Shown piece after piece: positions 1,140-38,087 of a DNA stretch of 46,999 bases. Where the stretch lies: IMG/VR virus record IMGVR_UViG_3300028895_000256, positions 1 through 46,999 of that record; one strand, given 5' to 3'. The stretch's first letter is position 1, and every line of letters begins with the position of its first letter. The translations under genes were made by a program, and so were the position numbers. The notes beneath the pieces were generated by a model. It saw nothing but the letters and a program-made list of their open reading frames with translations, did no database searches and was not told the DNA's origin. Source of the stretch: a virus.

Positions 1140-1182
1140 TGGGCCTACCGGTGGCCCAGGTGGTGGGTCCGCAGACAAAATG
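1140..1182 (-). promoter_or_regulatory. Conserved intergenic cassette, copy 1
   Basis: Core GGTCCGCAGACAAAATG at 1166-1182 (plus-strand text), which differs from the consensus only in its first base. Downstream in the minus direction lies an inverted repeat TGGGCC-N7-GGCCCA (1140-1158), then the AGGAGA site and start of the tail chaperone gene at 1121. It sits 18 bases after the stop of the tail-tube gene, so it separates the connector/tail-tube block from the chaperone/tape-measure block. Confidence 0.7.
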
Positions 1183-1200
1183 CCCGCGGCGCCCGGTTGC

Positions 1201-2181
1201 CTACGGGTAGATGCCGGTCACACCGTCGATGACGGTGATCGTCGTCAGGTACGTGCTGTCGAGGTATGCCTCGGCCCGCAGCTTGCCCATGATCGTGTCT
1301 TCGCCGATTCCCACGGGGTCGGCGTTGGGCCCGGTGATCTGCGCGTCGTCGATCTCCATCTCGAACTCGTAGGTCCCGACCACGAACTTGAAGGAGATCC
1401 CGACCGTCCACTGGCTTTTCCAGGCGTTGTACTCGGACCTGGCCGCGCTGCCCTTGAACACGCGGGAGACCTCGAAGTCGAGGGTCCGCGGGCCCTGCAC
1501 GATGCTGTCGGAGATGTCGTCGGCCAGCGTGGTCTCCTCCGGCTTCATGGTCCGGTTGTACATGACCTTCAGCCCCACGATGCTCGTGTCGAGGGACTGC
1601 GCCCCGCCGTTGTAGCCGATCGTGAACTGGCCGGCCCGCAGGGTGTTCCAGCTGAGGGCCCGGTTGTTGGCCCCGGTCGGATGGCTGGCGGTCAGCGATG
1701 CCGCGGGCGTGCCGAGGTTGCAGCCGATGCCGTTGACGTTCATGCTGCAGAACTGCTTGGCGTTGACCTCCATCTCGATCGACGTGATCCGGCCGCCCAG
1801 CAGGACCTCGACCGTCTCGCCGGTCCCCGCGCTGCTGATGTCTTCCTTGTAGTCCTTGTAGACGTTGACGTACTGCGCGTCGGCCGCGGGGGTAATCGTG
1901 TGCGTGGTGCTCGCGCCGCTACACCCACCCAGCGCCAGGTACCAGAGGTAACCGGCTGCGTAGGCGTGGGGCTCGAGCCCGCTGATCGAGAAGTTGTAGT
2001 TGAAGCCCACGGGCAGCACGCCGGTGCGGTCGGGGCTGATCCCACTCTTCTCGCTGATCGTCTGACCGTCGCCTTCGATCTGGATGTCGTCGGCCTTCAG
2101 GTACAGCTGAGGGGTCGCGACCTGTTCGGTCGCGCTGTCGGCTTGCGTGATCGCGCCGACTCCGTCCTGCTTACTTGCCAT
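1201..2181 (-). CDS. Major tail tube protein
   Basis: 326 residues with strong AGGAGG six bases before the ATG. It is rich in beta-strand-like alternating segments, Thr, Gly and Ser, and has the phage tail-tube pattern: NYNFSISGLEPHAY near residue 60, a central QFTIGYNGGAQ segment, and a C-terminal stretch with AWKSQWTVGISFKFV and EFEMEIDDAQI, as expected of a protein forming stacked hexameric rings. The position after the connector genes and directly before chaperone and tape measure supports the call. It overlaps the preceding small gene by 11 bases, so the two are translationally coupled. It is large for a single-domain tube protein, and an extra surface domain is possible but cannot be delimited by eye. 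Confidence 0.75.
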   Translation of the reverse strand: MASKQDGVGAITQADSATEQVATPQLYLKADDIQIEGDGQTISEKSGISPDRTGVLPVGFNYNFSISGLEPHAYAAGYLWYLALGGCSGASTTHTITPAADAQYVNVYKDYKEDISSAGTGETVEVLLGGRITSIEMEVNAKQFCSMNVNGIGCNLGTPAASLTASHPTGANNRALSWNTLRAGQFTIGYNGGAQSLDTSIVGLKVMYNRTMKPEETTLADDISDSIVQGPRTLDFEVSRVFKGSAARSEYNAWKSQWTVGISFKFVVGTYEFEMEIDDAQITGPNADPVGIGEDTIMGKLRAEAYLDSTYLTTITVIDGVTGIYP

Positions 2182-2377
2182 CGCGGTCCTCCTCGTTGGC
2201 GTCGGTGGCGACCGGGGTCTTCGAGAAGAAGCCGGTCCTCAGCAGCGCCGCGGCCTGGGCCGCGGGGAGCTCGGTCTTGTCGCCCGGCTTGAAGACGCCG
2301 AAGCCCGTGAAGGACCGCGGTTCGGTGCCGGTGTAGTAGATGGTCTGGGGCGCATCGCCCTTCGCCTGCTTACTCAT
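2171..2377 (-). CDS. Small head-tail region protein, unknown
   Basis: 68 residues starting MSKQAKGD and ending in an acidic tail, with a central motif SFTGFGVFKPGDKTELPAAQ followed by an amphipathic helix with paired alanines and leucines. It overlaps the stop of the upstream tail-terminator-like gene by 8 bases and the start of the tail-tube gene by 11, so it is surely part of this operon. Small proteins of this style (a short beta region plus LLRTGFF-type helix) are common beside connector genes in Mu-like phages. I do not recognise a specific family. Confidence 0.6.
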   Translation of the reverse strand: MSKQAKGDAPQTIYYTGTEPRSFTGFGVFKPGDKTELPAAQAAALLRTGFFSKTPVATDANEEDRDGK

Positions 2378-2810
2378 AGGTCCGGACCTCCATTCGCCGG
2401 GTCAGGGTCTGCAGGAGATCCTTGCTGTTCTCCTGCGTATCGATCCCCGTGGTCCAGCCTCGGAGATCCGTGTCCTCGACATCGTCGTCCAGCCCCCATC
2501 GGGGGTTCGCCTTGATCAGGTCGCGCAGCTGCTTGTCGATCGCCAGCAGCGTCAGGTATTGGTTGTTCGTTCCGTCTGGCACGACCGGGATCTCGACCGT
2601 CCAGTAGACGGTCTGGCGCTCGAGATCCTGGGCCAAGTCGTTGACCCCATCGTCGCCCTCGATCGCCATCACAGCGATGACCGGCCAGGCAGCCTGCGGC
2701 GTGAGCGGGCCGGCCATGATCTTTACGGGCGCCGTCCCCGCCTGCCAGTCGTTCTTGGCCTCGAGGATCGCAATCTGCGCCGTGAGCACGTCAGCGATGT
2801 CGATGCCCAT
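2370..2810 (-). CDS. Tail terminator/completion-like protein
   Basis: 146 residues. It starts with an amphipathic helix (MGIDIADVLTAQIAILEA), followed by beta strands with WPVIAVMAIEGDD and VYWTVEIPVVPDG, a long helix (LTLLAIDKQLRDLIKA) and a final strand (RRMEVRTYE). This alpha-beta order and the position between Phage_tail_S-type and tail-tube genes fit the lambda gpU / tail-terminator fold that caps the tube and joins it to the head. The start shares the TGATG of the upstream stop. The fold call is by pattern and gene order only. Confidence 0.5.
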   Translation of the reverse strand: MGIDIADVLTAQIAILEAKNDWQAGTAPVKIMAGPLTPQAAWPVIAVMAIEGDDGVNDLAQDLERQTVYWTVEIPVVPDGTNNQYLTLLAIDKQLRDLIKANPRWGLDDDVEDTDLRGWTTGIDTQENSKDLLQTLTRRMEVRTYE

Positions 2811-3292
2811 CAGAGCCCCCTTGCGATTGCGTCAAGCACCAGCTGGACCATCGCCCTCTTGTCGGCCGTCTGCCAGACCATGTAGGGCCTGGCCGGGATC
2901 TTGGGGATCATCCCTGCGGGTGACCCGAATTGGTGCACCGCCGCAATTGGTGACCGGGTGTAGACCTTGAAGTTGCTAGTCCCGAAGACCTTAAACCCGA
3001 TCGTGTCGCGCAGATGCTGCCCTGTATCCAGCAGAGGTTTTGTGCTGAGTGCCGCCCCGCTCGTCTTTTTGCCGGCGCTGGCAGCACGCCTCTGCTTTGC
3101 CTTGCGTCGCTTGTCGATCGTCACCTGCTTGAGCGGCTTCCACGGCTTCGGCCGGCCGGACGCTTGGAAGTTCCGCAGCACCGACCGGTAGGCGATCACG
3201 GCCATGCGCCGGACCGGCAGCTGACGATGGACCCTGGCCAGGTAGTCGATGGCCTTCCGAAACTCCTTATCGTCGAACGTCGCCGTAATCAT
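2810..3292 (-). CDS. Virion morphogenesis protein, Phage_tail_S (Mu gpG) type
   Basis: 160 residues, basic in the middle (KRRKAKQRR). Features of the Mu gpG / Phage_tail_S family are visible: a helix with RKAIDYLARV, a FQASGRPKPWKPLK segment (family pattern F..  G..W.pL), PLLDTGQHLRDTI (pattern LL.TG.L..si), then AAVHQFGSPAG (pattern a..HQfG) and an IPARPYM segment. Family members are needed for head completion or head-tail joining in Mu-like phages. The ATG overlaps the stop of the gp36-like connector gene (ATGA) and the ribosome site is weak, so translation is probably coupled. Confidence 0.8.
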   Translation of the reverse strand: MITATFDDKEFRKAIDYLARVHRQLPVRRMAVIAYRSVLRNFQASGRPKPWKPLKQVTIDKRRKAKQRRAASAGKKTSGAALSTKPLLDTGQHLRDTIGFKVFGTSNFKVYTRSPIAAVHQFGSPAGMIPKIPARPYMVWQTADKRAMVQLVLDAIARGL

Positions 3293-3732: not shown

Positions 3733-4230
3733 CTACTCGTCGTCTCGCGGAGCCTTCGCGTGGCCCTTGGTGTAGACCACCTTGACCGGGCCCGAGAGGA
3801 ACCGCTCCTCCGGCGGGATGCGACCGCGTTCGCTCTCGATGAGCTCCGCGATCTTCTCGTCGGGCATCACCACCAGGCCGGTGTCCTTGTCCCAGAGCTT
3901 GTAACCGGCGCGGTCGCCGATCTCGGGAACCTCGATCAGGTCGCAGCCGGGCGGGATCTCGATGACGATCGGGTCGACGATCGGGGGCGCAGGCTCCGCG
4001 TCCTCCCGGGCGCCGCCGCCGTTGAGCGTCATCTTCAGCGGGACGTGGATCCCGGCCTTGGCTTCCTTGGGCGGATCACACTTCTCGACCAGCCGCTGCT
4101 CGATCAGCTTCTTGGCGATGCCGACCGGAATCAGGGCTGGGACTCCGGTACGCAGCACCATGGTTTCGTACGTGGGCTGCTTGACGCCGGGAAGTGTTCG
4201 GACCCACATGGTGTTTGGCTTTTCTGCCAT
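3733..4230 (-). CDS. Unknown structural-operon protein downstream of the major capsid gene
   Basis: 165 residues. I chose the ATG at 4228-4230 (MAEKPNTMW) because it follows AAAGGAGAGCC and lies beyond the regulatory cassette; the frame is open further upstream. The N-terminal half has a VRTLPGVKQPTYETMVLRTG segment, then a Gly-rich acidic linker with repeated proline and isoleucine (PIVIEIPPG), and ends in a charged helix. I do not recognise a family. Being first gene after the cassette and before the gp36-like connector suggests a head-completion or decoration role, which is inference. Confidence 0.6.
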   Translation of the reverse strand: MAEKPNTMWVRTLPGVKQPTYETMVLRTGVPALIPVGIAKKLIEQRLVEKCDPPKEAKAGIHVPLKMTLNGGGAREDAEPAPPIVDPIVIEIPPGCDLIEVPEIGDRAGYKLWDKDTGLVVMPDEKIAELIESERGRIPPEERFLSGPVKVVYTKGHAKAPRDDE

Positions 4231-4255: not shown

Positions 4256-4287
4256 CCCCACCAGGTGGGGTGTCTGCAGAAAATATG
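4256..4287 (-). promoter_or_regulatory. Conserved intergenic cassette, copy 2
   Basis: A diverged core, TGTCTGCAGAAAATATG (4271-4287), directly followed in the minus direction by the near-palindrome CCCCACC-T-GGTGGGG (4256-4270), then the AAAGGAG site of the gene starting at 4230. It is the most divergent copy (C to T inside the core and a two-base rearrangement), but the architecture is intact. Confidence 0.6.
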
Positions 4288-4293
4288 TCGGCC

Positions 4294-4313
4294 GCGGGGG
4301 CCGAAGCCCCCGC
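4294..4313 (-). terminator. UUCG-loop hairpin after the major capsid gene
   Basis: On the minus strand GCGGGGGC-TTCG-GCCCCCGC forms a perfect 8-bp stem with the very stable UUCG tetraloop, 18 bases after the capsid stop. A short T-run (ATATTTTC) follows only about 10 bases later, inside cassette copy 2, so termination may be partial. It may also serve as a 3' stabiliser of the capsid message. Confidence 0.5.
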
Positions 4314-4331
4314 AGCTGACTGCTGGGCCGT

Positions 4332-5312
4332 CTAGGTCCACAGGGTGGCCGCGACGACCTTGCCGGGTTCGGTCAGACCTGGCGACGCGGTCTGGCACAT
4401 CAGCGCCGTGCGCCCCGGGGGGTCTTCCCGGACGTAGGTCTTGGCGAACTTCCCGATCAGCCGATCGGGGGCCTTCGAGTCGATCGCCTTCCCCTGCACG
4501 AACTGCCCCACGGGGCCGGCGGCCTTGATGATCGCCATGTTGCCGAGGGTCGGGGCGCCGCTCGTGCTGAGGTAGTAGTTGAAGGTGCCGGCGTTGTCCC
4601 ATCCGTCGTCCACGAGAATGACGTTGAGATCGGCGATCTTCCCGATCTTCCCGGTCTCGAAGTACGTCTTCTTCGTGTCGTCGGAGAACAGCGCCTTGGC
4701 CTCGCTCGTGGCCATCAGCAGGCGCAGTCCGGGGCTCGTGATCAGCAGCTCGGCGGCCTTATAGCCGCTGGTCTGCTCGATCAGCACCTTCCACGCGTTG
4801 ATGTTGGCGATGGGCGTGGCGGTGGCCGGGAGATCCCACTCGACGCCGGCGCTGACCGTGTTGGTCAGACCGAAGTCGTAGGTCAAGGACTCCTCGCCCA
4901 GGGCACTGTAGCCGCCGGTGGTCAGGATCTGCCAGCGGGCCCACTCCCAGGTCCGCTCGAAGATATCATCCAGCTGCCGGAGTTCCCGGGTCAGCGCCTG
5001 CTCGGCGAGCTCGGGATGGTCCTTGCCGGGGGCTTCGCACCACCGGATGGTGGTCTCCTCCAGCTGAACCTTTTCGCGCAGACACGCCAGCTGCACGCGC
5101 TTCTTGACGCGTGCGGTGCGGGCCTTCACGCCGGCGACGGAGTCCGGGTTGCGGAAGTCCGTCTTGCCCCGGTTGCTCTGCAGGATGTGGAATTCGAATT
5201 CCTTTTCATCCGTCTTGCCACCGGTGAAGTAGCGAGCGGCCGGGGTCGCGACTCCGGGCTTGAAAGCCTGGACGACGCCGGTCAGCTTCGCGTTACTCGG
5301 AAATGCGGGCAT
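4332..5312 (-). CDS. Major capsid protein (lambda gpE-like, Phage_cap_E)
   Basis: 326 residues with a strong AGGAGG site. The pattern fits the lambda gpE capsid family: an N-terminal region with YFTGGKTDEKEFEFHI, a helix-rich middle (QLACLREKVQLEET, the backbone-helix region, then a long stretch of charged helices with DDIFERTWEWARWQIL), the strand VEWDLPATATPIANI before a helical segment, and a C-terminal region where RTALMCQTASPGL matches the family's closing R..L.vp.... pattern. It follows a D-type decoration gene and a protease/scaffold gene, as in lambda (C-Nu3-D-E). It is followed by a UUCG hairpin. Confidence 0.85.
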   Translation of the reverse strand: MPAFPSNAKLTGVVQAFKPGVATPAARYFTGGKTDEKEFEFHILQSNRGKTDFRNPDSVAGVKARTARVKKRVQLACLREKVQLEETTIRWCEAPGKDHPELAEQALTRELRQLDDIFERTWEWARWQILTTGGYSALGEESLTYDFGLTNTVSAGVEWDLPATATPIANINAWKVLIEQTSGYKAAELLITSPGLRLLMATSEAKALFSDDTKKTYFETGKIGKIADLNVILVDDGWDNAGTFNYYLSTSGAPTLGNMAIIKAAGPVGQFVQGKAIDSKAPDRLIGKFAKTYVREDPPGRTALMCQTASPGLTEPGKVVAATLWT

Positions 5313-7144: not shown

Positions 7145-9664
7145 TCAGATCTTGAATCCGGTCATGGGCTCGGTCGCAGGGATGGCGGTCAGCAGGTACT
7201 GCTCGCCCCTGACAATCGGGATCCAGATCGATCGGCACTGGTAGTGGTTCGGGGGGTTGTTGGCCATGACTCGCGGGTCGTCGGCCCGCATGACCGTCCC
7301 GTTCCAGTCACGGCAGAACTCGGTGGTCCGGTCGTCCATGATCGACGAGTACTCGTAGGCCACGATGAAGGTCCCCACTTCGGGGTGCTGCATCATGTTC
7401 ATGCGGCCGGTCGAGTAGGCTTCGGCGAGGTTCGTGCGGACGATGTTCTCGACGCGCCACGGGTTGGCCAGGGCCGGGTCCAGCGCTCCTGGGTCAGCCA
7501 GGTATGGCATGAAGATGTCGTTGACCGCCAGCTGCATCTGGGCCAGCGTGGCGCCCCTGATCATTCCCTTGCCCAGCGTCACCTGGACCCGGCCGAGAAG
7601 CTCATCGCTGAACGCGCCGGTGATGGTGAAGGACTGCCGGCTGTACTGCGCGAGCAGCTGGCGCTGGATCGGGACCTTGCCCTTCCAGTAGTCGATGATG
7701 TCGCGGCGGGTGGACGTGTAGGCGTGGTTCGCGCCGGCCGCCTCGATGACTCCGTGGTCGAAGAGCGCTCGACTGATCGGGACTGCGTAGGGATGGTCAG
7801 GCGAGGGCGGGGCGACCGTGTAGTTGGTGTTCATCGTGTCACCGAGGTTCTCGATCTCGGGCACCGGCGTCCCGACAGCCTTGATCCCACGCCGGACCTC
7901 GGAGAAGGCGTCGGCGGCCCCCCGGTGGAGGGCATGCCCTGTGAGCCGCTCCAGAGCAGCCCGGAGCTCGCCGACGCCAACCATCCGAAGTTTTCCAATC
8001 TCCGACTGGTCCCTCGTCTCTGCGAGCTTCCGCTTGCGGATCGTCTCGTTAAGCCCGCGCCGCATGCCGTCGATGATCTCGGTGATCTCCGCGATCGACT
8101 CGGCTTCCTCGCGATCGTGGGCAGCCGCGATCTCGACGTGCTTATGCTTGGCGGCGTGTTTCAGCTGCCGGGCCCCGTCCGCCCCTGCTGCATGGTCAGC
8201 CTGACGATGGTGCGTGGCGGCGACGGGATCGCCTTGCTTCCCATCTGCAGGAGGGGCTGGCGGATCCGAGTTGGGGTCCGGATCCGCGACGGGCGGGGGC
8301 GGGGCCGGCAGTCTAGTGGGCTTAGGGGGCGGCGGGAGTTGGCGCTCAGGCAGGTCGAGCCTCTGGCGGGCCACGTCGAAGTCAGACTGGTCATCCGGGT
8401 CGAGAACCCTGCAATCGACCATCTTCGCGACGGCGTCGACGCGCTCCTGCATCGTCTCTTCGGCGTACTCTCGCCACCTGAATTCAGGGTAGCGATCGGT
8501 GCGGAAGTTCAGGTCGATCAGCGGCCGGATGACCTGATCACCCATCACGTCTTCGGCCAGGCGCTCGCCGAGCGCGTCGAGGACCCATGTGAAGTTGTCG
8601 GCGTGGCGCTGGCCGAGGCTGTAGGCGCCGCGCTCGCCTTCGCTGCTGATCAGGCTGGGCAGCAGGACCGCCTTGCGGATCTGGGCGTCGCAGTACTTCA
8701 GCCCGTCCTGGTAGTCCACTCCGCGGCGGGCGCTCTCGATCAGCTCGAGCTCCCAATCCTTCGGCACGATCGCGGCGCCCTTGCCCTTGAGCCCCTCGAG
8801 GAAGCCGAGGACCTCGGCCTTGTCCGATGGATCGGTGTTCGGCTCGAACTTGCCGACCGCGCTCGGCGCGGCGTACCGCTCGAGGAACAGGAACCACAGC
8901 TGCGGCAGGATCTGCTTCGCCTTGAACCACCGGTACGCTGCGCGGAGCTCGCTGCGGCCGACGTAGCTGCCCTTCCCCCGCCAGACCCAGATCACGAAGT
9001 AGTTGTGGTCGAGGGTGGTGAAGGTATTGGTGATGCCCTGGCGCTGCTCGAGGCGCTCGAGGTTGCCGTGCTTGTCGGTGATGAATCGGAAGGTCTTAAT
9101 CGGGCGGGGCTTGATTGCTTGGAGTCCGACCTTCCCGCGCCACTCGCCCTCGGTGATCGGCCGGTAGATCCGCTCGTTCACGCTGGCCCCGAAGCTGAGG
9201 GCGTCCATCGCGTTCTCGAGGAACTCGGAGACCGTCCCGCGCATCTGCTGCAGCTGGGCCCGGATGAACTCGGCGTGCTGTTGATGCTCACGCTCATCGC
9301 TGGCCGGCTCAATCTCCCAGCCTGAACTCAGGCGGGCCAGGATCTTGTACTGCATGGCGCTGAAGACTTCGGCGTCTTCATCCAGCATCTCCTGGTAGTC
9401 CTCGATCTCGAGCTCGCCTTCGGGCTTGTATTCGATCCCGTACTCGCCCATCAGGTACTCGAGCAGCCCGTGCTCCCGGACCTCGGCTTTCTCGCCCCAC
9501 TTGGTCCCGCTGATCATCCCGTCTTCCGTGTCGCTGCGGCGGGCATGCTGGGCCTGCGGGCCCTCGGGTCCACGGTCGATCACGCGCAGGTCATCCGGCG
9601 CTTGGCGGCTGCCGAAGCTGACCTTGAACTGCTTGTTTGAGAAGGGGAGACTGATAATCGCCAC
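7145..9664 (-). CDS. Portal (DUF935, Mu gp29-like) fused to MuF head morphogenesis domain
   Basis: 839 residues, GTG start (9662-9664) ten bases after GGGAGG; the frame upstream runs into the promoter region and is not used. Residues about 60-430 form the portal: EDAEVFSAMQYKILARLSSG, a KPRPIKTFRFITDKHGNLER segment and LLPSLISSEGERGAYSLG are typical of DUF935 portals. A proline-rich linker follows at about 440-470, then a basic/histidine-rich helix region. The C-terminal part (about 580-839) is MuF: NIVRTNLAEAYSTGR, ILD-type catalytic-like DDRTTEFCRDWNG and PPNHYQCRSIWIPI match Phage_Mu_F. The portal and MuF are usually separate adjacent genes; here they are one polypeptide without an internal stop. 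Confidence 0.85.
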   Translation of the reverse strand: MAIISLPFSNKQFKVSFGSRQAPDDLRVIDRGPEGPQAQHARRSDTEDGMISGTKWGEKAEVREHGLLEYLMGEYGIEYKPEGELEIEDYQEMLDEDAEVFSAMQYKILARLSSGWEIEPASDEREHQQHAEFIRAQLQQMRGTVSEFLENAMDALSFGASVNERIYRPITEGEWRGKVGLQAIKPRPIKTFRFITDKHGNLERLEQRQGITNTFTTLDHNYFVIWVWRGKGSYVGRSELRAAYRWFKAKQILPQLWFLFLERYAAPSAVGKFEPNTDPSDKAEVLGFLEGLKGKGAAIVPKDWELELIESARRGVDYQDGLKYCDAQIRKAVLLPSLISSEGERGAYSLGQRHADNFTWVLDALGERLAEDVMGDQVIRPLIDLNFRTDRYPEFRWREYAEETMQERVDAVAKMVDCRVLDPDDQSDFDVARQRLDLPERQLPPPPKPTRLPAPPPPVADPDPNSDPPAPPADGKQGDPVAATHHRQADHAAGADGARQLKHAAKHKHVEIAAAHDREEAESIAEITEIIDGMRRGLNETIRKRKLAETRDQSEIGKLRMVGVGELRAALERLTGHALHRGAADAFSEVRRGIKAVGTPVPEIENLGDTMNTNYTVAPPSPDHPYAVPISRALFDHGVIEAAGANHAYTSTRRDIIDYWKGKVPIQRQLLAQYSRQSFTITGAFSDELLGRVQVTLGKGMIRGATLAQMQLAVNDIFMPYLADPGALDPALANPWRVENIVRTNLAEAYSTGRMNMMQHPEVGTFIVAYEYSSIMDDRTTEFCRDWNGTVMRADDPRVMANNPPNHYQCRSIWIPIVRGEQYLLTAIPATEPMTGFKI

Positions 9665-9716
9665 GGCACCTCCCTGTCGCCGCGGCGAAAATAGCCCGCC
9701 GCACACACTTCCTGTC

Positions 9717-9749: not shown

Positions 9750-9836
9750 CCTCGGAGGTCAGGCGGGGCAACGGGTTGCGGCGTTCGGGCTGGCGGGCGA
9801 CTTCCTGGAGGTGGGAACCCTGCGGGAAGGTTCCAA

Positions 9837-28128: not shown

Positions 28129-28135
28129 TCGGCCG

Positions 28136-29647: not shown

Positions 29648-32600
29648 CTACCGGGTCTGTGCGATCTTGCTGTCGACTCCCTCGGCCTCGACCTCGAGGA
29701 GGCTGCCGGCGCAATCCGGCATCCCCTGGACGTGGCTGACGAACATGAAGAGCCCGCGGTTTTTCGCGATGTCCTGGATCGTCGCCTTCGCGGCGTCCAG
29801 GTGCTCCGGCTTCATCGTCCCGAAGCCCTCATCCTGCAGGCTCATCCAGATCTTCGTGCCGGTCGCCGACGCATGCAGGTCGGCGAGACCATTCTTCTTC
29901 GACATGCCCAGGGCCGTCGCCTGCTGCCCGCTGGCCATGCTGACCGGGTGTCGGCCGCGGTGGTCCCTGAACTCCATGTTCACGATGTTCCGAACCTCGC
30001 CGGTGGTGGTCTCTCGCTCGCTCGAGATCTCGACGCGCATGTTGGTCCCACTGAGGTAGCGGTTCATGTGCTGCTGCAGCGTGGGGATGGCGTACTGCTC
30101 GAGCAGGAGGAAGGGGATTCCATCGCGGTGCATCGCCTCGATGTAGGTGTCCATGGCTGCCATGGTGGCCTGCTGCTCATCGAGCTTGGCCTTGGCCATG
30201 TCCGCTTTCATCCGGTCGGCCTTCGACGATCGGACCGTATCCTCGAGGCTCTTGACCTGCGCTTCGGCTGCGGCGAGCTCCTGGGTCCAGGTCTGGCGGT
30301 CCTGGCGGTTGGTCGCCGCGCAGCCCCGGGCCCGCTCGAGCGCCGCCTCGGCCTCAGCCAGGGCGTGCTCGGCTGCAGCGAGATCGGCGGGGGGCATGGC
30401 CTTGAGGGTAGCCTGGGCCCGGCCGAGGCGCTCGGCGGCCGCGGCCTGATCCCCGGCGGCCCGCCGGATCTCCTGGATCTGCTCGCTGATCCTGGCGTTG
30501 GCCTCCCGGATCTGACTCGCATTGCGGATGGTGCTGTTAGCGGTGCTCTGGCGCTGGCGGGCGGCGGCGAGCTTGGTTTCGATCGCCTCCGCTTCGCCCT
30601 TGAGCCGCTCTTGCTCCCGCTCGAGGGCTTTCTCGCCGTCGCGCACCACCTGCTCGGCGGCGGCCTTCGTAGCGGCCTGTGCCTCGGTGATCGCTGCGAT
30701 CCGGTCGACCGTCTTCTGGCGTTCAATCGTCGTGTAGTCGCGGGCGGCCTCGGCGCCCGCCAGGTTCTGCTGGAGCGCCGGGATCCGGTCGCGGGCGGCC
30801 TTGGCGTCGGCCAGGAGCTTGCATTCGCCCATATCGACTATCCCCACTGCATCTTCCCATCCTTTCCCTTCGCACGGCACTTCGTCGATCAGCGCTGCCT
30901 GGCGCTCTGCGGTGGCCAGTAGGTCGCCCAGGCGCCTGACCTCCGACTTCTGATGCCCCAGGTCCTGGGCCTGCCGCTCTGTGGTCGCCACGAGCTCCTT
31001 GAGTTCCGGATCGGTCTCGCAGTCCCGCCTGCAGGTGCTCAGGGCCTTCGCAGCGGCCGCCAGGTCTTCCTTCAGGCGCCCCTCCTGTGAGCTCTGGACC
31101 AGGTCCTTCCTGGCCCCCTCAAGCTCGGAGATCTCCGCTGTGGCGGCGTCCAGGGCCTCCTGGGCTTCGGTGGTGTACGGCACGTCTTTGCGCTGGGCCT
31201 CGAGCTCAGTGATGCGCTGAGCCTCCCGGCCGGCGTCTACGGTGGCCTGCTCGAGCTCCTTGACCCTGGCGGCCGCCGTGGTCCGGGCGCTGGCCTTCGC
31301 CCGCTCCCCATCGAGGCTGACCTTCGCATCCGAAACAGCCCCAAGGGCGGTCTCGATGGTCTCCTGGTCTTTCTCCGGATCCGGGGCGTTGGCGAGGATC
31401 TCCCGGGCCAGCTGCAGGGCTCGCTGGGCCTGCGGGATCTTCGCTTCGGCTGCGCTCGCACGCTCGAGGACCCCATGAAGGGATGCGAGCTCGGTGCGGG
31501 CGGTGTTCGCCTTGTCGGATGCCTCCCGGCGCATGTCCTTCGCCCGTTTCTGCCGCTGCTCGAAGTTGCGCTGGAGCACGCTGACCAGCAGGTCCTTGTC
31601 TTCTGCGGGGGTGAGCTTCAGCAGTCCGTCGATGTCGTTCTGGCCCGCGTAGCTGATTGCCATGAAGATCTCGAAGGTCCCGACCAGGGCGTCGATCTGC
31701 CTCTGGACCTCGGGCGCCGTTCCTTTCTGGATCGGCACCCAGGATTCGTCTTCGATCACTCCGCTGGTCTTGTCGAGGCGCCAGAGGTAGGTCTTGCAGC
31801 CGGTGCGGCTGGCCAGCTTGATCTCCCGCCGGACGCGGTAGGTGTTGGGGCCGCTGCGGAAGGTCATCTGCACCCATGCGCGGTCAGTCCTCTTGCGGAC
31901 GAGGTTCTCCATCTTCTCGCCAGCCAGCTGCCGGCGGTAGAGGGCGAAGACAATAGCCCGGACGAAGTTGCTTTTCCCGCCGTAGTTGGGGCCGTCGATC
32001 GCCGTGACCGGCTCGAGCTTGGTGAAGTCCACGTCGATCTCCGGGTACTGGCACCAGTTGCTGGCCTGCAGCCGGAGCGGCTGCATCTCGTACCGTGCGT
32101 CGAGGTGCTCATCCTCCACCATCCCCTCGATCTGCTTGGTGAGTTCGAGGATCTGATCGGCGTCGTCTCCGGTGATCTCCTTGATCTCGAGGTACCGTTC
32201 CATCGCGGCGACCAGGGTCAGGTCGGTGTCGATCTCGAACTTCGCGGCCGCTGCGTCGGTCCGCTCCTCGATCACGCTCAGGGCCTCGAGCTTGTGCTCG
32301 GCACGTAGCTTCTCCTGGGCTGCAGGCGTCAGCCGGTCGAGCACGGCGCCGAGTGCCCGGGCCCGGATCCGCACGCGGGCGTGGGCGGGGATCGTCGCGA
32401 GCTCCGTACCGATCGCCTCCTCGATGTCGGCGTCGACCCCGTCCGCTCTGACCGTCCGCTCGACCAGCTGGCTGGCGACGATCAGCTTGTGGACCTGGAC
32501 CTTGTGCTCGCCGGTCTCGGTGTCGATCGTGTGGAGCAGCGCCGCGGGCTCGAGGAGCTCCTCGTTCCAGGTCAGTGGCGCGATCGCCCCCGCGTAGCAG

Positions 32601-33316
32601 AACTTGGGCAACCCCTCCTCGAACTCGATGGTCTGCCGGCGGTGGATGTGTCCGAGCAGGACGGCCGCGGCGCCGCGGAAGGCGGTCCGAGGGACGATCA
32701 CGTCCATCCCCCTGGTCATCATCTGCTCATTCCCAAGCTTGGCGCCGCCGACCGTGCCGTGGTAGAGCACGACCGGGACTGCGCCCTTGCTGCGGGCATC
32801 GACGATCGCTGCCTGGATGACCTGGCCCACCAGGGCGCCGGGATCTCCGATCTCCTCATCGGAATTCTGCTCGAGCGTCCTGATCGTCACCTTGTTTGGG
32901 CAGGGAATCATGATAATCGCGATGGCCGTGTCGTCGTCGAGCACGTAGTTGGTGACCATCGGCATGTTGGCAATCTGGATCTTGTCGGTGTAGGCGAGCT
33001 CCGGGCTCCCGGCGCCCGCCAGGATCCCGGTCAGGGTTCCGTGCATGCCCGCCGAGTATTCGTCGTCGTGGTTGCCCTTGAGCACCACCAGCCCGCGTCC
33101 GGACGCTTCGGCCAGGTGCGTGCAGTCTCGCCGGATGCGCCACGCGATGTCGTCGGACGTCGACCCTCGGTGCGTGGTTAGGTCGCCAGTATGGCCCACC
33201 AGATCCGGCTTGATCTCGCGGGCCTTTTCGATCAGGTCCTGGATCGGTGGCTCGACGTAGGCGCGGTTCTTCGGATCCAGGTGCCAGTCGCATGTGTGTA
33301 GGATCGTGAATTCCAC
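29648..33316 (-). CDS. SbcD (Mre11)-SbcC (Rad50) single-chain fusion
   Basis: 1222 residues, GTG start after GGAGG. Residues 1-330 are the Mre11/SbcD phosphoesterase: DWH (10-12), GD (44-45), GNHD (81-84), H186 and GHIH (222-225) supply the two-metal site. After a linker the Rad50/SbcC ATPase begins with Walker A GPNYGGKSN (442-450; Y replaces the usual G), then a QNDIDGLLKL Q-loop region (about 559-568). A coiled coil runs about 580-1040 with paired cysteines at C762/C766 and C815/C832, one of which probably forms the hook. The C-terminal lobe has signature SMASGQQ (about 1126-1132), Walker B WMSLQDE (to 1163) and an H-loop FVSH (about 1192-1195). The complex normally trims DNA ends and opens hairpins as two separate genes; here both halves are one protein. 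Confidence 0.9.
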   Translation of the reverse strand: MEFTILHTCDWHLDPKNRAYVEPPIQDLIEKAREIKPDLVGHTGDLTTHRGSTSDDIAWRIRRDCTHLAEASGRGLVVLKGNHDDEYSAGMHGTLTGILAGAGSPELAYTDKIQIANMPMVTNYVLDDDTAIAIIMIPCPNKVTIRTLEQNSDEEIGDPGALVGQVIQAAIVDARSKGAVPVVLYHGTVGGAKLGNEQMMTRGMDVIVPRTAFRGAAAVLLGHIHRRQTIEFEEGLPKFCYAGAIAPLTWNEELLEPAALLHTIDTETGEHKVQVHKLIVASQLVERTVRADGVDADIEEAIGTELATIPAHARVRIRARALGAVLDRLTPAAQEKLRAEHKLEALSVIEERTDAAAAKFEIDTDLTLVAAMERYLEIKEITGDDADQILELTKQIEGMVEDEHLDARYEMQPLRLQASNWCQYPEIDVDFTKLEPVTAIDGPNYGGKSNFVRAIVFALYRRQLAGEKMENLVRKRTDRAWVQMTFRSGPNTYRVRREIKLASRTGCKTYLWRLDKTSGVIEDESWVPIQKGTAPEVQRQIDALVGTFEIFMAISYAGQNDIDGLLKLTPAEDKDLLVSVLQRNFEQRQKRAKDMRREASDKANTARTELASLHGVLERASAAEAKIPQAQRALQLAREILANAPDPEKDQETIETALGAVSDAKVSLDGERAKASARTTAAARVKELEQATVDAGREAQRITELEAQRKDVPYTTEAQEALDAATAEISELEGARKDLVQSSQEGRLKEDLAAAAKALSTCRRDCETDPELKELVATTERQAQDLGHQKSEVRRLGDLLATAERQAALIDEVPCEGKGWEDAVGIVDMGECKLLADAKAARDRIPALQQNLAGAEAARDYTTIERQKTVDRIAAITEAQAATKAAAEQVVRDGEKALEREQERLKGEAEAIETKLAAARQRQSTANSTIRNASQIREANARISEQIQEIRRAAGDQAAAAERLGRAQATLKAMPPADLAAAEHALAEAEAALERARGCAATNRQDRQTWTQELAAAEAQVKSLEDTVRSSKADRMKADMAKAKLDEQQATMAAMDTYIEAMHRDGIPFLLLEQYAIPTLQQHMNRYLSGTNMRVEISSERETTTGEVRNIVNMEFRDHRGRHPVSMASGQQATALGMSKKNGLADLHASATGTKIWMSLQDEGFGTMKPEHLDAAKATIQDIAKNRGLFMFVSHVQGMPDCAGSLLEVEAEGVDSKIAQTR

Positions 33317-33443: not shown

Positions 33444-34789
33444 TTCCCCTCCCGCATGACGTTCACGCGCTCGAGCGCCTCATCGCAGTTGATGTCCCGC
33501 GCCAGCTTGTGGAGCTTCGCCGGGTCCAGGGGATCGCAGATCGTCTGCAGGTACGTGCGCACCTTGTCCCCGTTTTCCTCGTCGGTCATCCGGGCTGCGT
33601 GCATCGAGAGGATCGGCAGCGCCGCCGTCGCCTCCTCGGTCGACCAGGGCCCGGACTGGAGCGTCGGGTCCGGCATGGCCTCCCCCTCGGCGGGGTGCGG
33701 CCCTTCGCGGCGGGCCGCGAATTCGGCCCGGAGGGTCTGCTTGCGATCCTCGGCCGCCGCGATGAACCAGTCCCCGGCTTCGGGGGCGAGTCTGTACTTG
33801 CCCACGATGTTGTCGACGTGATCCGGGACCGTCGCGGCCTCGAGCTTCTGCATGAGCTCGACCTTCGAGATCCCGGCGACCTCGGGGTCGATCTCGCCGG
33901 TGGCCTCGTTGACGGAGGCAGGTGCGGCGTCAGTGACAGTCGCCTCCGCTGCCTGCGGCCCGCTCTCGCCCGCCGCGAGTGCGCCGGCGGTCGGCTGTGG
34001 GGCATCGAGGAGCAGAGCAGCGAGCCCATCGATCGCCGCAGGGCCAAACACTTGGCGCTGCGCCTGCAGGCCAGCCATGACAACCATCCTCTTGATGTCC
34101 GGATCGCTCGTGTCGGGTGTGAAGCTGAATTTGATGATCGCGAATTGCTTTTTCCGGAGTTCCTCTGGCTTGAAGTTCGACTGCAATCCCACAAGTGCTC
34201 GGACTGCTCGAGCGATGGCTTTGCTCTCGGTCTTCGCTTCGGCGTCTCGTTGCTCCTTGATCCAGCGCTTCCGGAACTCGGCATCGATCTTTTCGTCTCT
34301 GTTCGCAGCGGTGCAGCCCTTCCATTTCTTTTTGATGTAGAAGTCGATCGTACTGATTGCCTGGTCCATGCAGTCCTGCCGCTCCACCGACGCCTTCCAG
34401 ATCCGTGTTCGGACCGCCGGGCGCAGGCCCCCACTCGGGTTGTTCATGGCAGCCACCGCCTTGTAGACGATTCTCGCGTCCGTGTTCTCCTTGGCCGGCT
34501 CAGCCATCGTGGCGATGTCGCCTGCGGCGCAGAGCAGGTCGAGGGCGGGCTTCTGCAGGGCGACGCTTTCGGGGTGATCGTACCACTCCCCGCTTTTGTC
34601 CTGCTTGCGCTTGGTTTTGACGGGATAGACCATATTGTCGTTGTCGGGGTCGATATTGACGACCGCGACATCCAGGCTCCACATCGGGAAATCCTGATCG
34701 ATGGTCCGCGTTACTTGGGGCATGAGGAGGATGTAGTCTTCTGGCTTGTACCGGTCGGCGACCGCACTGAAATCTAGTATCTGTGGCAT
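33440..34789 (-). CDS. Possible single-strand annealing / recombination protein
   Basis: 449 residues. The part from about 135 to 235 has a helical segment with AEAKTESKAIARAVRALVG followed by FKPEELRKKQFAIIKFSF, resembling the 'A.TkA..RA.R.l.g....y..eEl.kpfav' block near the end of the DNA-binding core of Rad52/Erf/RecT-type annealing proteins. The N-terminal part has DYILLMPQVTRTI and MWSLDVAVVNIDPDND. The C-terminal 180 residues are acidic and helical (SKVELMQKLEAAT, TEEATAALPIL). The neighbour SbcDC fusion supports a recombination role. The start lies behind a G(AG)6 repeat that forms its ribosome site. Confidence 0.45.
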   Translation of the reverse strand: MPQILDFSAVADRYKPEDYILLMPQVTRTIDQDFPMWSLDVAVVNIDPDNDNMVYPVKTKRKQDKSGEWYDHPESVALQKPALDLLCAAGDIATMAEPAKENTDARIVYKAVAAMNNPSGGLRPAVRTRIWKASVERQDCMDQAISTIDFYIKKKWKGCTAANRDEKIDAEFRKRWIKEQRDAEAKTESKAIARAVRALVGLQSNFKPEELRKKQFAIIKFSFTPDTSDPDIKRMVVMAGLQAQRQVFGPAAIDGLAALLLDAPQPTAGALAAGESGPQAAEATVTDAAPASVNEATGEIDPEVAGISKVELMQKLEAATVPDHVDNIVGKYRLAPEAGDWFIAAAEDRKQTLRAEFAARREGPHPAEGEAMPDPTLQSGPWSTEEATAALPILSMHAARMTDEENGDKVRTYLQTICDPLDPAKLHKLARDINCDEALERVNVMREGK

Positions 34790-34794
34790 GTCGG

Positions 34795-34825: not shown

Positions 34826-35380
34826 TCAGTGGTCCCCCACCAGAGGGTCCAGTCTCCACTCCGCGCCGCCCGCAGTCTCGAGGTGCTCGCGGTCGTGGTA
34901 GTAGATGGTGTAGCGCGTCCCCGTCTTCTCCGGCGGCGCGTGCGTGTAGAAGATCAGGGCATCGCCGTTGACGATCATCCCCCAGCCCAAGTGGGCCTTT
35001 GTGATCTCGGCGGCCAGCCCGAAGACATCCTGCTTCTGATGCCGCGTACCATTGCGCGTGAGGAGCTTCGCGGCGCCCCCGCCGGGCCCCTCGCGGGTCT
35101 CGGTGATCAGGGTGAAGATGCGCAGGCGATCGTGGCCCGTCACTTGCGATTTCAGCCACTGGCCGAGGAACTTGGTCCGCTCCTCGTAGTCGGTGATGAC
35201 GCGCATTGCAGCCTTGTAGGTGCTTAACCCCATCCCGCTTCGCTCGCCGAGGTACTCCGTCAGCGTCCCCTGGCTGATGCCGATCAGGTCGGCCGCGGCG
35301 ACCTGGCCATCGGCCAGCTGCAGCAGCGCCCTGGCAATCTCGGCGGCCCGCTTCGGGGGGATCGTGTTCTTCGTCGCCAT
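34826..35380 (-). CDS. HTH DNA-binding protein, candidate phage regulator
   Basis: 184 residues from ATG 35378-35380 (MATKNTIPPKRAAEI), seven bases after GGAGG; the ATG two codons earlier is too close. Residues about 18-47 read LQLADGQVAAADLIGISQGT, with GISQGTLTEYLGE as recognition helix, a clear helix-turn-helix. The remainder is mixed alpha-beta, with LRIFTLITETREGPGG, GMIVNGDALIFYTHA and TRYTIYYHDREHLE. It is the most obvious transcription-factor candidate in the window, transcribed early, and therefore a candidate binder of the conserved cassette. No known family assigned. Confidence 0.55.
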   Translation of the reverse strand: MATKNTIPPKRAAEIARALLQLADGQVAAADLIGISQGTLTEYLGERSGMGLSTYKAAMRVITDYEERTKFLGQWLKSQVTGHDRLRIFTLITETREGPGGGAAKLLTRNGTRHQKQDVFGLAAEITKAHLGWGMIVNGDALIFYTHAPPEKTGTRYTIYYHDREHLETAGGAEWRLDPLVGDH

Positions 35381-35393: not shown

Positions 35394-35645
35394 TCAGATG
35401 GTGATGGCCCCGGTGAGGAGCCCGAGAAGCAGCCCGACCACCAGGCCGGCCACGAAGCCGGCCCAGGTCGCCTTGGTGCTGTAGTGGTGGACGAAATGGA
35501 CGCGCCGGGCGGCCATGGGGCCGTTGTCGTAGCGAGCGCCCCCTGCTGGCCCCCAGGATAACGGTGCAAAAGATCCGACATATTGAACATTCGGATCGGC
35601 GGCTTGTCGCCCATCGAAGCTCCCACGCAGGGCATCGTCGCTCAT
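35394..35645 (-). CDS. Small single-pass membrane protein
   Basis: 83 residues, ATG overlapping the preceding stop (ATGA), with AGGAGG before it. Polar N-terminal 55 residues, then a C-terminal membrane helix (about 61-82: WAGFVAGLVVGLLLGLLTGA). Type consistent with an inner-membrane tail-anchored protein. It is the first gene after cassette copy 6. Function unknown. Confidence 0.65.
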   Translation of the reverse strand: MSDDALRGSFDGRQAADPNVQYVGSFAPLSWGPAGGARYDNGPMAARRVHFVHHYSTKATWAGFVAGLVVGLLLGLLTGAITI

Positions 35646-36037
35646 GCCATACCTCCTGTGGGCTCAAAAATTGTGATATGGGGTGTCCGCAGACAAACCG
35701 GCGGCCGCCGGTCCGGCGAGGCGGTCAGACGCAGGATCTGCTCCCGGGCCGCGGCCATCGCCCTCGAGGCGGCGTGCTTCTTGGCGTCGGCTGTGTCCCG
35801 GCAGGCGATCAGGGCCTCGCCGGCGGTCTTCGTGGTGATCGCCCAGATCCCGGCGCCCGGCTCGCCGGCGCGGTCCGGGTAGCGGAGCGTGGCCGTGGCC
35901 TTGCCCACAGCCCTCAGAACCGGCATGTGCGTTCGCTGGATCGCCCGGGCCAGGATGGTCCCGGGGTTGATGCAGGAGGTTCGAATAACCTCTGGCGTGA
36001 TCTCTCGGTCCGTGATAAGGTGCCGTCTGTCCATCAT
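35642..36037 (-). CDS. Unknown early protein; 3' end runs through cassette copy 6
   Basis: 131 residues from ATG 36035-36037 (MMDRRHLITDREITPEV), seven bases after GGAGG. The frame is open upstream to an alternative ATG at 36236-36238 with its own GGAGG, but that extension spans the AT-rich promoter at 36119-36147, so I prefer the short form. The middle (ATATLRYPDRAGEPGAGIW and IACRDTADAKKHAASR) is unremarkable; the last 15-20 residues are encoded by the conserved cassette. No family recognised. Confidence 0.55.
   Translation of the reverse strand: MMDRRHLITDREITPEVIRTSCINPGTILARAIQRTHMPVLRAVGKATATLRYPDRAGEPGAGIWAITTKTAGEALIACRDTADAKKHAASRAMAAAREQILRLTASPDRRPPVCLRTPHITIFEPTGGMA
35683..35697 (-). 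promoter_or_regulatory. Conserved intergenic cassette, copy 6
   Basis: GTGTCCGCAGACAAA; the usual ATG that follows is replaced by CCG. On the upstream side the minus strand has the perfect palindrome CCGGCGGCCGCCGG directly before TTTG, terminator-like. The downstream dyad seen in the other copies is not evident. It lies wholly inside the 3' end of the upstream coding frame, 38 bases before the start at 35645. Confidence 0.6.
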
Positions 36038-36118
36038 CGGTCTGCCTCCGTGGTGGATGGCCGTCCTGGGGCTCCAGTTCCCGGGGCGGCCGTTGTCGTC
36101 TGGCCCCTGTCGATCGTC

Positions 36119-36147
36119 ACCATGCCGATTGCCGGTAACGGTGTCAA
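36119..36147 (-). promoter_or_regulatory. Sigma70-like promoter P1 with CCGTTACCG spacer motif
   Basis: Minus strand TTGACA (plus tgtcaa, 36142-36147), a 17-base spacer, then CATGGT (36119-36124). It is preceded by an AT-rich stretch (TTGTAAATTTTCTC) and carries CCGTTACCG directly after the -35 hexamer, as in the promoter at 36603. It would drive the gene starting at 36037. Confidence 0.55.
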
Positions 36148-36289
36148 GAGAAAATTTACAATTTATTTTGAGCCTCGGATGCGCGGTCGCCGGAAGCGGC
36201 CGCCTGGCCTGGGCTGAGACGCGAGTCGGGCTGCTCATCGCTTGCCTCCGCTTGGGGTTGCAGGGGCCTGGAGCCCCCCTGTTGTGCCC

Positions 36290-36556
36290 TCAGCTGCAGA
36301 CGCTGCAGGAGGTGGCCCGGATCTCGCGGCCGTGCTTGATGGCCGCCCTCTTGGCTTCGGTGTAGGTGAGGCCCGCCGGCGCGAACCAGGGGGCGCTCTG
36401 GCCGTTCCACCGAATAAAGGTGAAGGCCCAGCTTCCCCGGCCGCTGGGGCGCCGGCCGTGCACCCACTCGTAGTGGTCGGCGCTTTCTGGGTTAAAGCGG
36501 CAGGGCAGGGTCCGGGTCGCGGGGCGGCTGGTCTCGGTCTGCTTCTGGTTCGTCAT
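36290..36556 (-). CDS. First early gene, unknown
   Basis: 88 residues, ATG after AGGAGGCAGACAG. Basic and Thr/Ser-rich at the start (MTNQKQTETSRPATRT), then WVHGRRPSGRGSWAFTFIRW and APAGLTYTEAKRAAIKHGRE, ending with two cysteines (SCSVCS). It lies alone between two promoter-like sequences just after the terminator, the usual place for an immediate-early host-takeover gene. No family recognised. Confidence 0.6.
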   Translation of the reverse strand: MTNQKQTETSRPATRTLPCRFNPESADHYEWVHGRRPSGRGSWAFTFIRWNGQSAPWFAPAGLTYTEAKRAAIKHGREIRATSCSVCS

Positions 36557-36602
36557 CCTGTCTGCCTCCTGTTCGGTTTCGTTGCCCTGTCTCTATGCTT
36601 AC

Positions 36603-36631
36603 ACTATGACGGACATCGGTAACGGACGCAA
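36603..36631 (-). promoter_or_regulatory. Sigma70-like promoter P2 with CCGTTACCG spacer motif
   Basis: Minus strand TTGCGT (36626-36631), 17-base spacer, CATAGT (36603-36608), preceded by AT-rich text (GCTAAATTAC). The same CCGTTACCG follows the -35 hexamer as in P1. It lies 47 bases before the first early gene (36556) and after the late terminator, so it is the best candidate for the first promoter used on infection. Confidence 0.6.
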
Positions 36632-36724
36632 GTAATTTAGCGTTTATTCCCATGTATTTTCTGTCTCATATTCGGGCAACACGGGCCGAAACGGGGCGAT
36701 CTGGCGGCAACGGCCGCGGGATGT

Positions 36725-36742
36725 GGTCGACCACGGTCGACC
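36725..36742. promoter_or_regulatory. Two GGTCGACC palindromes one helical turn apart
   Basis: GGTCGACC at 36725-36732 and again at 36735-36742, a 10-base register, in the 130-base non-coding gap between early promoter P2 and the terminator. Geometry is that of a tandem operator. The rest of 36632-36763 holds nothing I recognise. Confidence 0.45.
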
Positions 36743-36763
36743 AGGGCCCTCCCGGCGGGCACG

Positions 36764-36794
36764 AAAAAGCCCCCGGGGGCGGCTCCCCGGGGGC
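36764..36794 (-). terminator. Strong intrinsic terminator closing the lysis/secreted-protein block
   Basis: Minus strand GCCCCCGGGG-AGCCGC-CCCCGGGGGC (36794 to 36769) forms a perfect 10-bp stem with a 6-base loop, followed at once by TTTTT (36764-36768). It lies 29 bases after the stop of the gene at 36824. It is the only textbook rho-independent terminator I see in the window. Confidence 0.9.
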
Positions 36795-36823
36795 CCGTCT
36801 CACTTCACTTCGCCCGGCAGCCG

Positions 36824-37312
36824 CTAGGGGCCCTCGGGCACCACGTAGAACGGCGTGAGCTCGACCTTGTTGCCGTGCCCCGCGGTGTCGCCAGCCGCGA
36901 AGTAAAACTGCGCGATGTTCGGCGAGCCCAGGTAGGTGAGTTTGCAGGGCCATGCCGGGCCGGTAAGCGTGTACGGATCCGCCGGCAGGTGCGTGAAAAC
37001 TCCGGCCGAATCAGCGCTCGTGGTGTCCGGGGTGGCCGAGGTGACGTAGTCGTCGTAAACCTTCACTCCGAAGGGCGCCTCGCTCTGCGCGAAGAAGCCC
37101 GCGGGAACCAGGCCCGACGCCGGCGCTCCGTAGCCAACATAGCCGGCCAGGTCCGGGATCGTGACCGTGTCGGTCAGCGTGTCGCGCTCGGTGCTGATGG
37201 TTGCCCCCATCAGGATCCTGCCTGCGTCCGAGACGCTTGGCTGCCCGAAGGCTGCGGCGGCCAGGGCAAGCAAGAGTGCCCCGATCAGGGCGACGGTGGT
37301 CTTCCGGTTCAT
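36824..37312 (-). CDS. Secreted protein, unknown
   Basis: 162 residues. Residues 1-23 are a signal peptide (MNRK, hydrophobic ALIGALLLALAAAAFG, cleavage likely after the AFG/Q region). The mature part is strand- and Thr-rich (TISTERDTLTDTVTIPDLAG, GVKVYDDYVTSATPD, QFYFAAGDTAGH) with only one cysteine. AAGGA precedes the ATG. Last gene before the terminator; a periplasmic or surface role at lysis is possible but unproven. Confidence 0.65.
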   Translation of the reverse strand: MNRKTTVALIGALLLALAAAAFGQPSVSDAGRILMGATISTERDTLTDTVTIPDLAGYVGYGAPASGLVPAGFFAQSEAPFGVKVYDDYVTSATPDTTSADSAGVFTHLPADPYTLTGPAWPCKLTYLGSPNIAQFYFAAGDTAGHGNKVELTPFYVVPEGP

Positions 37313-37379: not shown

Positions 37380-37396
37380 GCCGGCCGATGGCCGGC
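37380..37396 (-). other. Second GC hairpin directly after the 37397 stop codon
   Basis: GCCGGCC-ATC-GGCCGGC, 7-bp stem with 3-base loop followed by AAATC. Together with the UUCG hairpin 13 bases further it forms a double stem-loop. Confidence 0.5.
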
Positions 37397-37645
37397 TTAC
37401 GCGTTGCCGACGAGCTCCTCTTCCTCCATCTCGGCCACCCTGGCCAGAAGCCCCTCCCCGATCCGGAGCAGGCACGCCTTCTTGCTGAGCCTGAACTCGT
37501 TCTCGGCGCTCTTGAGGGCGCCGACCAGAGCGATGAGCTCATCGGAGTCGTCCAGGCCGACGCCGTCCGAGGCGGCGTCGATCAGCTCCACGACCTTGTC
37601 GCCGACTTCCTTCGGGTGCTGGGGGTTGTACTGCTGTTCGTCCAC
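37397..37645 (-). CDS. Small acidic protein, unknown
   Basis: 82 residues, GTG start with AAGGAGAGAGCC. Acidic, helical: KEVGDKVVELIDAASDGVGL, DDSDELIALVGALKSAENEF, RIGEGLLARVAEMEEEEL. Lies between the holin candidate and the secreted protein. No family recognised. Confidence 0.6.
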   Translation of the reverse strand: MDEQQYNPQHPKEVGDKVVELIDAASDGVGLDDSDELIALVGALKSAENEFRLSKKACLLRIGEGLLARVAEMEEEELVGNA

Positions 37646-37748
37646 GGCTCTCTCCTTCGGTCAAGTGGTGGTATCGTGGTCTGCCTCTCCGCGGTCCGGA
37701 TTGAGCTCAGGCGGCGCACCGTGCGCCACCCAAGACGTCAAGAATTCG

Positions 37749-38036
37749 TCACTTTATGATCCCCAGCAGCTGCAGGAGGTTCTTCCCGGTACTGTGGATC
37801 GTGGTCGCGGCGGTGTACATGGTCCCGGCGTCGACCAGGATCTGCTGCGTGGTGGCCGCGGCGTCGGCTCCCAGCATCGCTGCGGCCGCTGAGACGGCCG
37901 CTACGGCCGCAGGGACCGTCCCTCGCTGCAGCCCCCGATCGTCGCCTGACGGCGCCGTGATGCGCTTCGTGCCGGATTTCACGGCCTTGCCGGCGCCCAG
38001 GGCCACGACTGTGCCTAGAATGGTGGTCAGATCCAT
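37749..38036 (-). CDS. Holin candidate (small hydrophobic protein)
   Basis: 95 residues from ATG 38034-38036 (MDLTTILGTVVALGAGKAV), AGGAG before it; the longer frame enters cassette copy 7. Two hydrophobic segments (about 4-20 and 44-65, the second alanine-rich: VPAAVAAVSAAAAMLGADAA) with a basic stretch between, and a C-terminal helix. Size, membrane segments and position after the endolysin candidate suggest a holin, but the hydrophobicity is modest. Confidence 0.4.
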   Translation of the reverse strand: MDLTTILGTVVALGAGKAVKSGTKRITAPSGDDRGLQRGTVPAAVAAVSAAAAMLGADAAATTQQILVDAGTMYTAATTIHSTGKNLLQLLGIIK

Positions 38037-38054
38037 ATCGGCTCCTCTCATTAT

Positions 38055-38087
38055 GTACCTACAGGTACGGTGTCCGCAGACAAAATG
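38055..38087 (-). promoter_or_regulatory. Conserved intergenic cassette, copy 7
   Basis: Core GTGTCCGCAGACAAAATG (38070-38087). Two bases later in the minus direction comes the palindrome GTACCT-GT-AGGTAC (38055-38068), then ATAATG, GAGAGGAG and the start at 38036. On the upstream side the palindrome GCCGCGGC precedes ATTTTG. It lies directly after the stop of the endolysin candidate. Confidence 0.75.

Follow-up and report, generated by a model that had tools for sequence, protein, structure and literature searches.

The window analysed here is the whole of the virus record IMGVR_UViG_3300028895_000256 (46999 bases), in which a short directional repeat, hereafter the core, stands at seven places ahead of genes. 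Apart from a few small ones, the open reading frames (ORFs) of the window, as picked by a mechanical choice, lie on the minus strand. Since a near-identical contig (L058) spans both window ends with 46 additional bases, the genome is probably almost complete and circularly permuted. Matches to PHROGs families were found for the structural proteins (terminase, portal with a minor head domain, protease, head decoration, major head protein, connectors, tail and tape measure) and for a replication initiator, SbcC/SbcD-like and methyltransferase/ParB-like proteins. The genes flanking the copies lie on the minus strand; read as transcribed, the element is therefore CATTTTGTCTGCGGACA, and 7/7 copies are oriented with transcription:

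1166-1182, minus strand: core copy with 1 change (last base), 44 nucleotides (nt) before the start of gene 600-1121 and directly after tail-protein gene 1201-2181
4271-4287, minus strand: core copy with 3 changes, between the major head protein gene 4332-5312 and gene 3733-4230
9735-9751, minus strand: core copy between terminase 9837-11462 and portal, 70 nt before the portal GTG at 9664
15142-15158, minus strand: exact core copy, 37 nt before the start codon at 15104
28111-28127, minus strand: exact core copy, 49 nt before gene 27537-28061
35684-35700, minus strand: core copy with 2 changes, 38 nt before gene 35394-35645
38071-38087, minus strand: exact core copy, 34 nt before gene 37749-38036

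A search for the 17-mer with up to 3 mismatches gave 6 matches, all on the plus strand (1166, 4271, 15142, 28111, 35684 and 38071), against a mean of 0.06 in 100 shuffled sequences, none of which reached 6; a backwards control sequence held no core matches. The 9735 copy differs from the 17-mer by 5 mismatches when aligned ungapped (4 to a 16-mer), or by a 2-nt deletion. The preliminary description of this DNA, which had all seven copies as exact or with 1-3 changes, is thus right for six. A weight matrix built from those six scores 15.8 at 9735, while no other place on either strand scores above 10.3 and the top of 30 Markov shuffles reaches 14.4. Consequently the core family is a closed set of seven, with 9735 as its weakest and least certain member, and the motif search over the whole window that had been proposed found no other place close to these. 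One near-identical contig, L057, terminates at or inside two of the repeat copies (window positions 4277 and 15137), possibly because the repeat broke the assembly.

From the end of the core to the start codon the distances are, in position order, 44, 40, 70, 37, 49, 38 and 34 nt, so that the spacing is 34-49 nt in 6/7 copies and reaches 70 nt ahead of the portal gene. What is expected of a phage-specific promoter, a directional block repeated ahead of genes with room for a leader, was therefore seen at 7/7 copies (34-70 nt). Two copies fall within the 3' end of a reading frame (35684 in ORF 35642-36238 and 15142 in ORF 15107-15607, both without a family match) and their codon phases differ, as had been claimed. 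The copies probably mark borders between separately controlled gene blocks. Among the labels previously given to these blocks, portal, capsid, connector, tail and terminase agree with the family matches, while the lysis label finds no support, the genes beside 38071 being without one; the downstream genes of 28111 and 38071, scanned in frame, gave no match above cut-off.

The invariant core positions form TTnTnTGCnGAC, a directional string, and 22 positions hold ~34 bits (uncorrected for seven sequences). On the 3' side the core is followed by CCCCA at 4271, 9735 and 35684, by TGGCCACT at 15142 and 28111, and by other C-rich strings at 1166 and 38071. Such information content is more like that of a promoter or protein site than of a generic nuclease site. 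The preliminary description had seen in the RNA a small UGUC-UGCG-GACA tetraloop hairpin. In the proposed 4-bp stem 24/28 cells are paired and all 4 departures, in copies 1166, 4271 and 9735, break a pair; 0 are compensated, and no alternative pair type occurs among the seven copies. Thus the core is kept as sequence and not as a stem, and we rejected the UNCG hairpin, broken in 3/7 copies with no compensating change. A known RNA family was likewise rejected, as Rfam gave no match in the window at the gathering score. These results bear on the idea that the core is an antitermination element (nut- or put-like), modifying polymerase as it passes each block start. Repetition at block starts in the orientation of transcription would agree with it, but such elements act as RNA, and the broken, uncompensated stem, the lack of an Rfam match in the window and of an N-like protein in the family scans render it very unlikely. 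We give still less credence to the copies being a relic of recombination at module joints, where the repeats would offer shared homology for block swaps and play no part in expression: the copies do lie at such joints, and the similarity of 15142 and 28111 extends further (40 nt, 88%), but uniform orientation, steady start-codon spacing and invariant core positions would not be required.

The core sits between two structures absent from the preliminary description, an upstream terminator-like hairpin and a downstream inverted repeat in the leader. Upstream, we took for each copy the best hairpin ending 0-4 nt before a T-run; the energies are -29.7 kcal/mol at 4271, -11.8 to -14.3 at five copies and -3.4 at 9735:

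1183-1207, minus strand: moderate hairpin before T-run, -11.8 kcal/mol
4287-4320, minus strand: strong terminator-like hairpin, then ATATTTTC, after the capsid gene; -29.7 kcal/mol, equalled at ~0.001 of 1500 random places, flagged by the terminator scan
9749-9764, minus strand: weak hairpin before T-run, -3.4 kcal/mol, not above background
15161-15180, minus strand: moderate hairpin before T-run, -13.2 kcal/mol
28130-28167, minus strand: moderate hairpin before T-run, -11.9 kcal/mol
35698-35735, minus strand: moderate hairpin before T-run, -13.3 kcal/mol
38087-38117, minus strand: moderate hairpin before T-run, -14.3 kcal/mol

Compared with 1500 random places the combined p was 0.0016, and compared with 77 other TTT sites 0.005; a hairpin test with another anchor put six copies at fractions of 0-0.21 and 9735 at 0.97. 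The layout of an intrinsic terminator, with a GC-rich hairpin directly followed by a T-run, is seen at 4271, in moderate form at five copies and not at 9735. Downstream, the leaders of 6/7 copies hold an inverted repeat whose arms are 6 or longer, its sequences unrelated among copies:

1140-1158, minus strand: leader inverted repeat TGGGCCACCGGTAGGCCCA, arms 6
4256-4270, minus strand: leader inverted repeat CCCCACCTGGTGGGG, arms 7
9705-9722, minus strand: leader inverted repeat ACACTTGACAGGAAGTGT, arms 6
15127-15138, minus strand: leader inverted repeat CCACTATAGTGG, arms 6
28074-28087, minus strand: leader inverted repeat GTTCCACGTGGAAC, arms 7
38055-38068, minus strand: leader inverted repeat GTACCTGTAGGTAC, arms 6

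Such repeats occur in 3/16 hand-picked control leaders (Fisher p 0.005) and in 11.5% of random windows. The p values for leader repeats and hairpins are optimistic, because the control leaders are 44 nt and the core leaders 34-70 nt long and because the limits of the tests were set post hoc.

The layout of hairpin, core and inverted repeat in 6/7 copies would also suit RNA processing, in which cleavage of a long transcript at the U-rich core would leave the upstream message with a hairpin at its 3' end and the downstream message with one at its 5' end. Leader repeats that vary in sequence yet keep their symmetry are what is expected if structure matters. The conservation of the core, however, goes far beyond the needs of a U-rich cleavage site, 9735 is without the upstream hairpin and 35684 without the leader repeat, and we hold this explanation to be improbable.

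Our preferred explanation, which we advance tentatively and at somewhat less than even probability, is that the copies are transcription-unit boundaries, where leaky termination is followed by a phage-specific promoter. It is favoured because the core is directional, rich in information, confined to seven gene heads and placed at a leader's distance. The phage-specific control signal at block boundaries previously proposed for the repeat fits these data, with a promoter as first choice, although the RNA-hairpin argument made for it does not hold. Each copy would open a transcription unit in a phage with one-way genes. The hairpin closing the upstream gene, together with the T-run on the left side of the core, would stop or thin incoming transcription, the signal for this being clear at the post-capsid copy alone. 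As a phage-specific promoter, the directional 17-22-bp core would then restart transcription, probably near its GGACA end, and the new leader would be ~35-55 nt long in six copies, with a variable inverted repeat that could shield the 5' end and then a Shine-Dalgarno site. We infer that transcription starts at the core, at this position, that the leader repeat has such a role and that a phage or host factor reads the core.

Several observations weigh against the boundary and promoter explanation. Pfam and PHROGs scans of most predicted proteins found no sigma factor or RNA polymerase, a member of an undescribed family being possible, and there is no second box at a constant distance from the core. 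A strict sigma-70 scan of positions 1-39400 gave 0 sites. The upstream-hairpin signal comes largely from 4271, and p rises to ~0.065 when that copy is left out (arithmetic from the same test); the hairpin of 9735 is no stronger than background and the T-run of 35684 counts three only. A generic terminator scan over positions 1-39400 yielded 8 and 11 sites versus 9.7 and 11.4 in shuffles, which is no excess, and it flags 4271 alone among the seven copies; because of this, termination at copies other than 4271 is weakly supported. The copy at 35684 has no leader inverted repeat, and the limits of the upstream-hairpin, leader-repeat and spacing and control tests were chosen after the copies had been viewed. 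Finally, no relative was found between near-identity and ~32% capsid identity. A core serving as the -35 or -10 element of a host sigma-70 promoter, in which the two hexamers would be 16-18 nt apart, was rejected, no partner block standing at a constant distance. The helix-turn-helix (HTH)-like protein encoded at 34826-35380, which had been put forward for binding tests, has no PHROGs match and no Pfam match above cut-off, and its single-sequence model (predicted local distance difference test score, pLDDT, 38.9) is too poor for use.

By analogy with stoperators, a phage protein on the directional core might halt or slow the elongating polymerase and so silence or separate gene blocks, and the hairpin just ahead of the core could aid termination at such a roadblock. 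We consider this rather unlikely. The stoperator sequence of cluster A presumably differs from the core, which we counted against this alternative, and the Pfam and PHROGs family scans of most predicted proteins revealed no repressor or integrase. The stoperators of cluster A phages (L5, TipsytheTRex) are reported to be 13-mers at >20 sites that are asymmetric, oriented with transcription, intergenic and bound by a repressor (PMC9283540). The core is likewise asymmetric, oriented, intergenic and repeated, but it has 7 sites only and no repressor was identified in this phage.

The core sequence is apparently new, no literature search aimed at it having been made, while repeats of its general kind are already known in other phages: intergenic repeat families have been reported for several actinobacteriophage clusters, and the function of several was called unknown (PMC4351075, PMC7302621, PMC7953290, PMC9283540, PMC3203893). 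In Microbacterium cluster EC an asymmetric 18 bp repeat occurs in 12 copies in small intergenic regions, 22-30 bp before starts, and in cluster EI a 30 bp intergenic repeat in 5 copies; both occur with a phage sigma factor gene (PMC7302621, which likewise treats the intergenic repeats of cluster EG). Like the EC and EI repeats, the core is an asymmetric repeat in small intergenic regions ahead of starts; the sequences differ, and in this phage no sigma factor gene was detected. By analogy, this pairing of intergenic repeats with a phage sigma factor gene would count for the promoter explanation. Cluster O phages (Corndog) carry 34 near-invariant 17-bp repeats that are perfect dyads with 7-bp inverted repeats, TGTTCGG/CCGAACA, without meaningful orientation and ~1/3 inside genes (PMC4351075). 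The core shares the 17-bp length and a dyad symmetry, and many cluster O copies are intergenic as well, but its 7 copies are directional, with an imperfect dyad that lacks the TGTTCGG/CCGAACA arms. The SAS of cluster K is a directional repeat tied to gene starts, as the core is, but it lies 3-7 bp from the start codon at the ribosome site, whereas the core is 34-70 nt away; ESAS adds inverted repeats (PMC3203893; also PMC12699233). The promoters of phage 7-11 (PMC4331800) were among the known systems considered. In cluster M mycobacteriophages conserved intergenic repeats have stem-loops upstream of CR3 and CR4 (PMC7953290). Most of the 12 gaps >40 nt in the cluster M phage Rey hold a strong hairpin, followed in at least 8/12 gaps (by eye) by a small dyad and then by CACGGAGAAGGGA or a variant before the start codon, the exact CACGGAGAAGGGA being present in 7 gaps. 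An upstream hairpin with an intergenic repeat before the start codon is thus common to Rey, whose elements may be CR3 and CR4, and the present phage, but the sequences differ and the Rey hairpins are much stronger. Moreover, in minimum-energy folds the small dyad forms its own hairpin in some Rey gaps only and is often absorbed in a larger stem, which weakens the parallel. The 'mobile regulatory cassettes' of T4-type phages are a further lead.

In the searches made, partial contigs included, the repeat family itself turned up in near-identical contigs alone; single-protein queries with terminase, capsid and portal led to near-identical contigs only, with the same copies where covered. The exact 15-mer occurs in 49 viral stretches, one of which is this phage (L035). 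Since a single homologous site, with differing flanks, recurs in at least 13 of the others, the stretches are not all independent; the unrelated ones, their longer contigs covered in part, showed no second copy with <3 mismatches to the 16-mer. A 20-letter pattern was present in 9 genome stretches from ~7 contexts (L116 and L117 being alike, as are L118 and L121), with ~7-8 estimated by chance and second copies at best at 4 mismatches, and a 16-letter core variant in 4 viral stretches. Capsid alignment retrieved 49 further distant viral loci with ≤32% identity, save one short piece of 37%, and the pattern set from this alignment had no match in bacterial genome contigs. One examination covered 30/49 of these loci and L058, and the hairpin test covered 25/49 and L058, the remaining loci being excluded as short or near-duplicates. 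A strong hairpin ≤110 nt after the capsid gene was found in 20/25 distant loci (p up to 0.05 versus 60 same-locus windows), although it is apparently inside the next gene in L068, L070 and L090 and some of the loci are mutually related. Three distant capsid relatives (L066, L074 and L105) have a repeat peculiar to them, CGATAGTAG, of which several copies stand 15-30 nt ahead of an ATG and others elsewhere, one of the latter within an apparent coding sequence. These repeats resemble the core in being phage-specific and multicopy before starts and differ from it in sequence; we know of no published family to which they belong, no literature search aimed at them having been made. In the wider group, then, capsid genes are often followed by a hairpin, which we counted in favour of the boundary explanation, and the repeats vary from one member to another.

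Whether intergenic phage repeats are promoters, roadblocks or processing sites is a question that the present family can serve, for as a small closed set of seven at expression-block boundaries, one of them beside a strong post-capsid hairpin, it makes a simple test case. A bolder proposal, to which we attach a small probability, is that terminator hairpin, directional core and leader hairpin would together constitute a three-part insulator, a switch shared by the seven block boundaries of a genome that runs one way; its reader, a transcription factor or a partner of the polymerase, would belong to an undescribed family and be encoded by one of the phage's unassigned genes.

Further features of the window were recorded. 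At 36560-36840 (minus strand) a GC-rich hairpin with TTTTT, seen by eye and not picked up by the generic terminator scan, precedes an AT-rich stretch ahead of gene 36290-36556; this is perhaps the end of one unit with an early promoter. A region of ~470 bases without a clear gene (23278-23749) is strongly purine-rich on the coding strand, with a GC skew of -0.24 over 23001-24000 and no tandem repeat found in it. The 91-base window block 34039-34129 is inverted within the tape-measure region of the near-identical contigs L058 and L059 (9288-9378), either an assembly chimera or a real insertion. The portal protein (7145-9664, minus strand) is fused with a minor head (morphogenesis) domain. A single 1222-aa protein encoded at 29648-33316 (minus strand), with matches to SbcD-like as well as SbcC-like families, is a phage example of a fused SbcDC, and a 572-aa protein encoded at 16041-17759 (minus strand) has ParB-like, HNH endonuclease and DNA methyltransferase family matches along its length.

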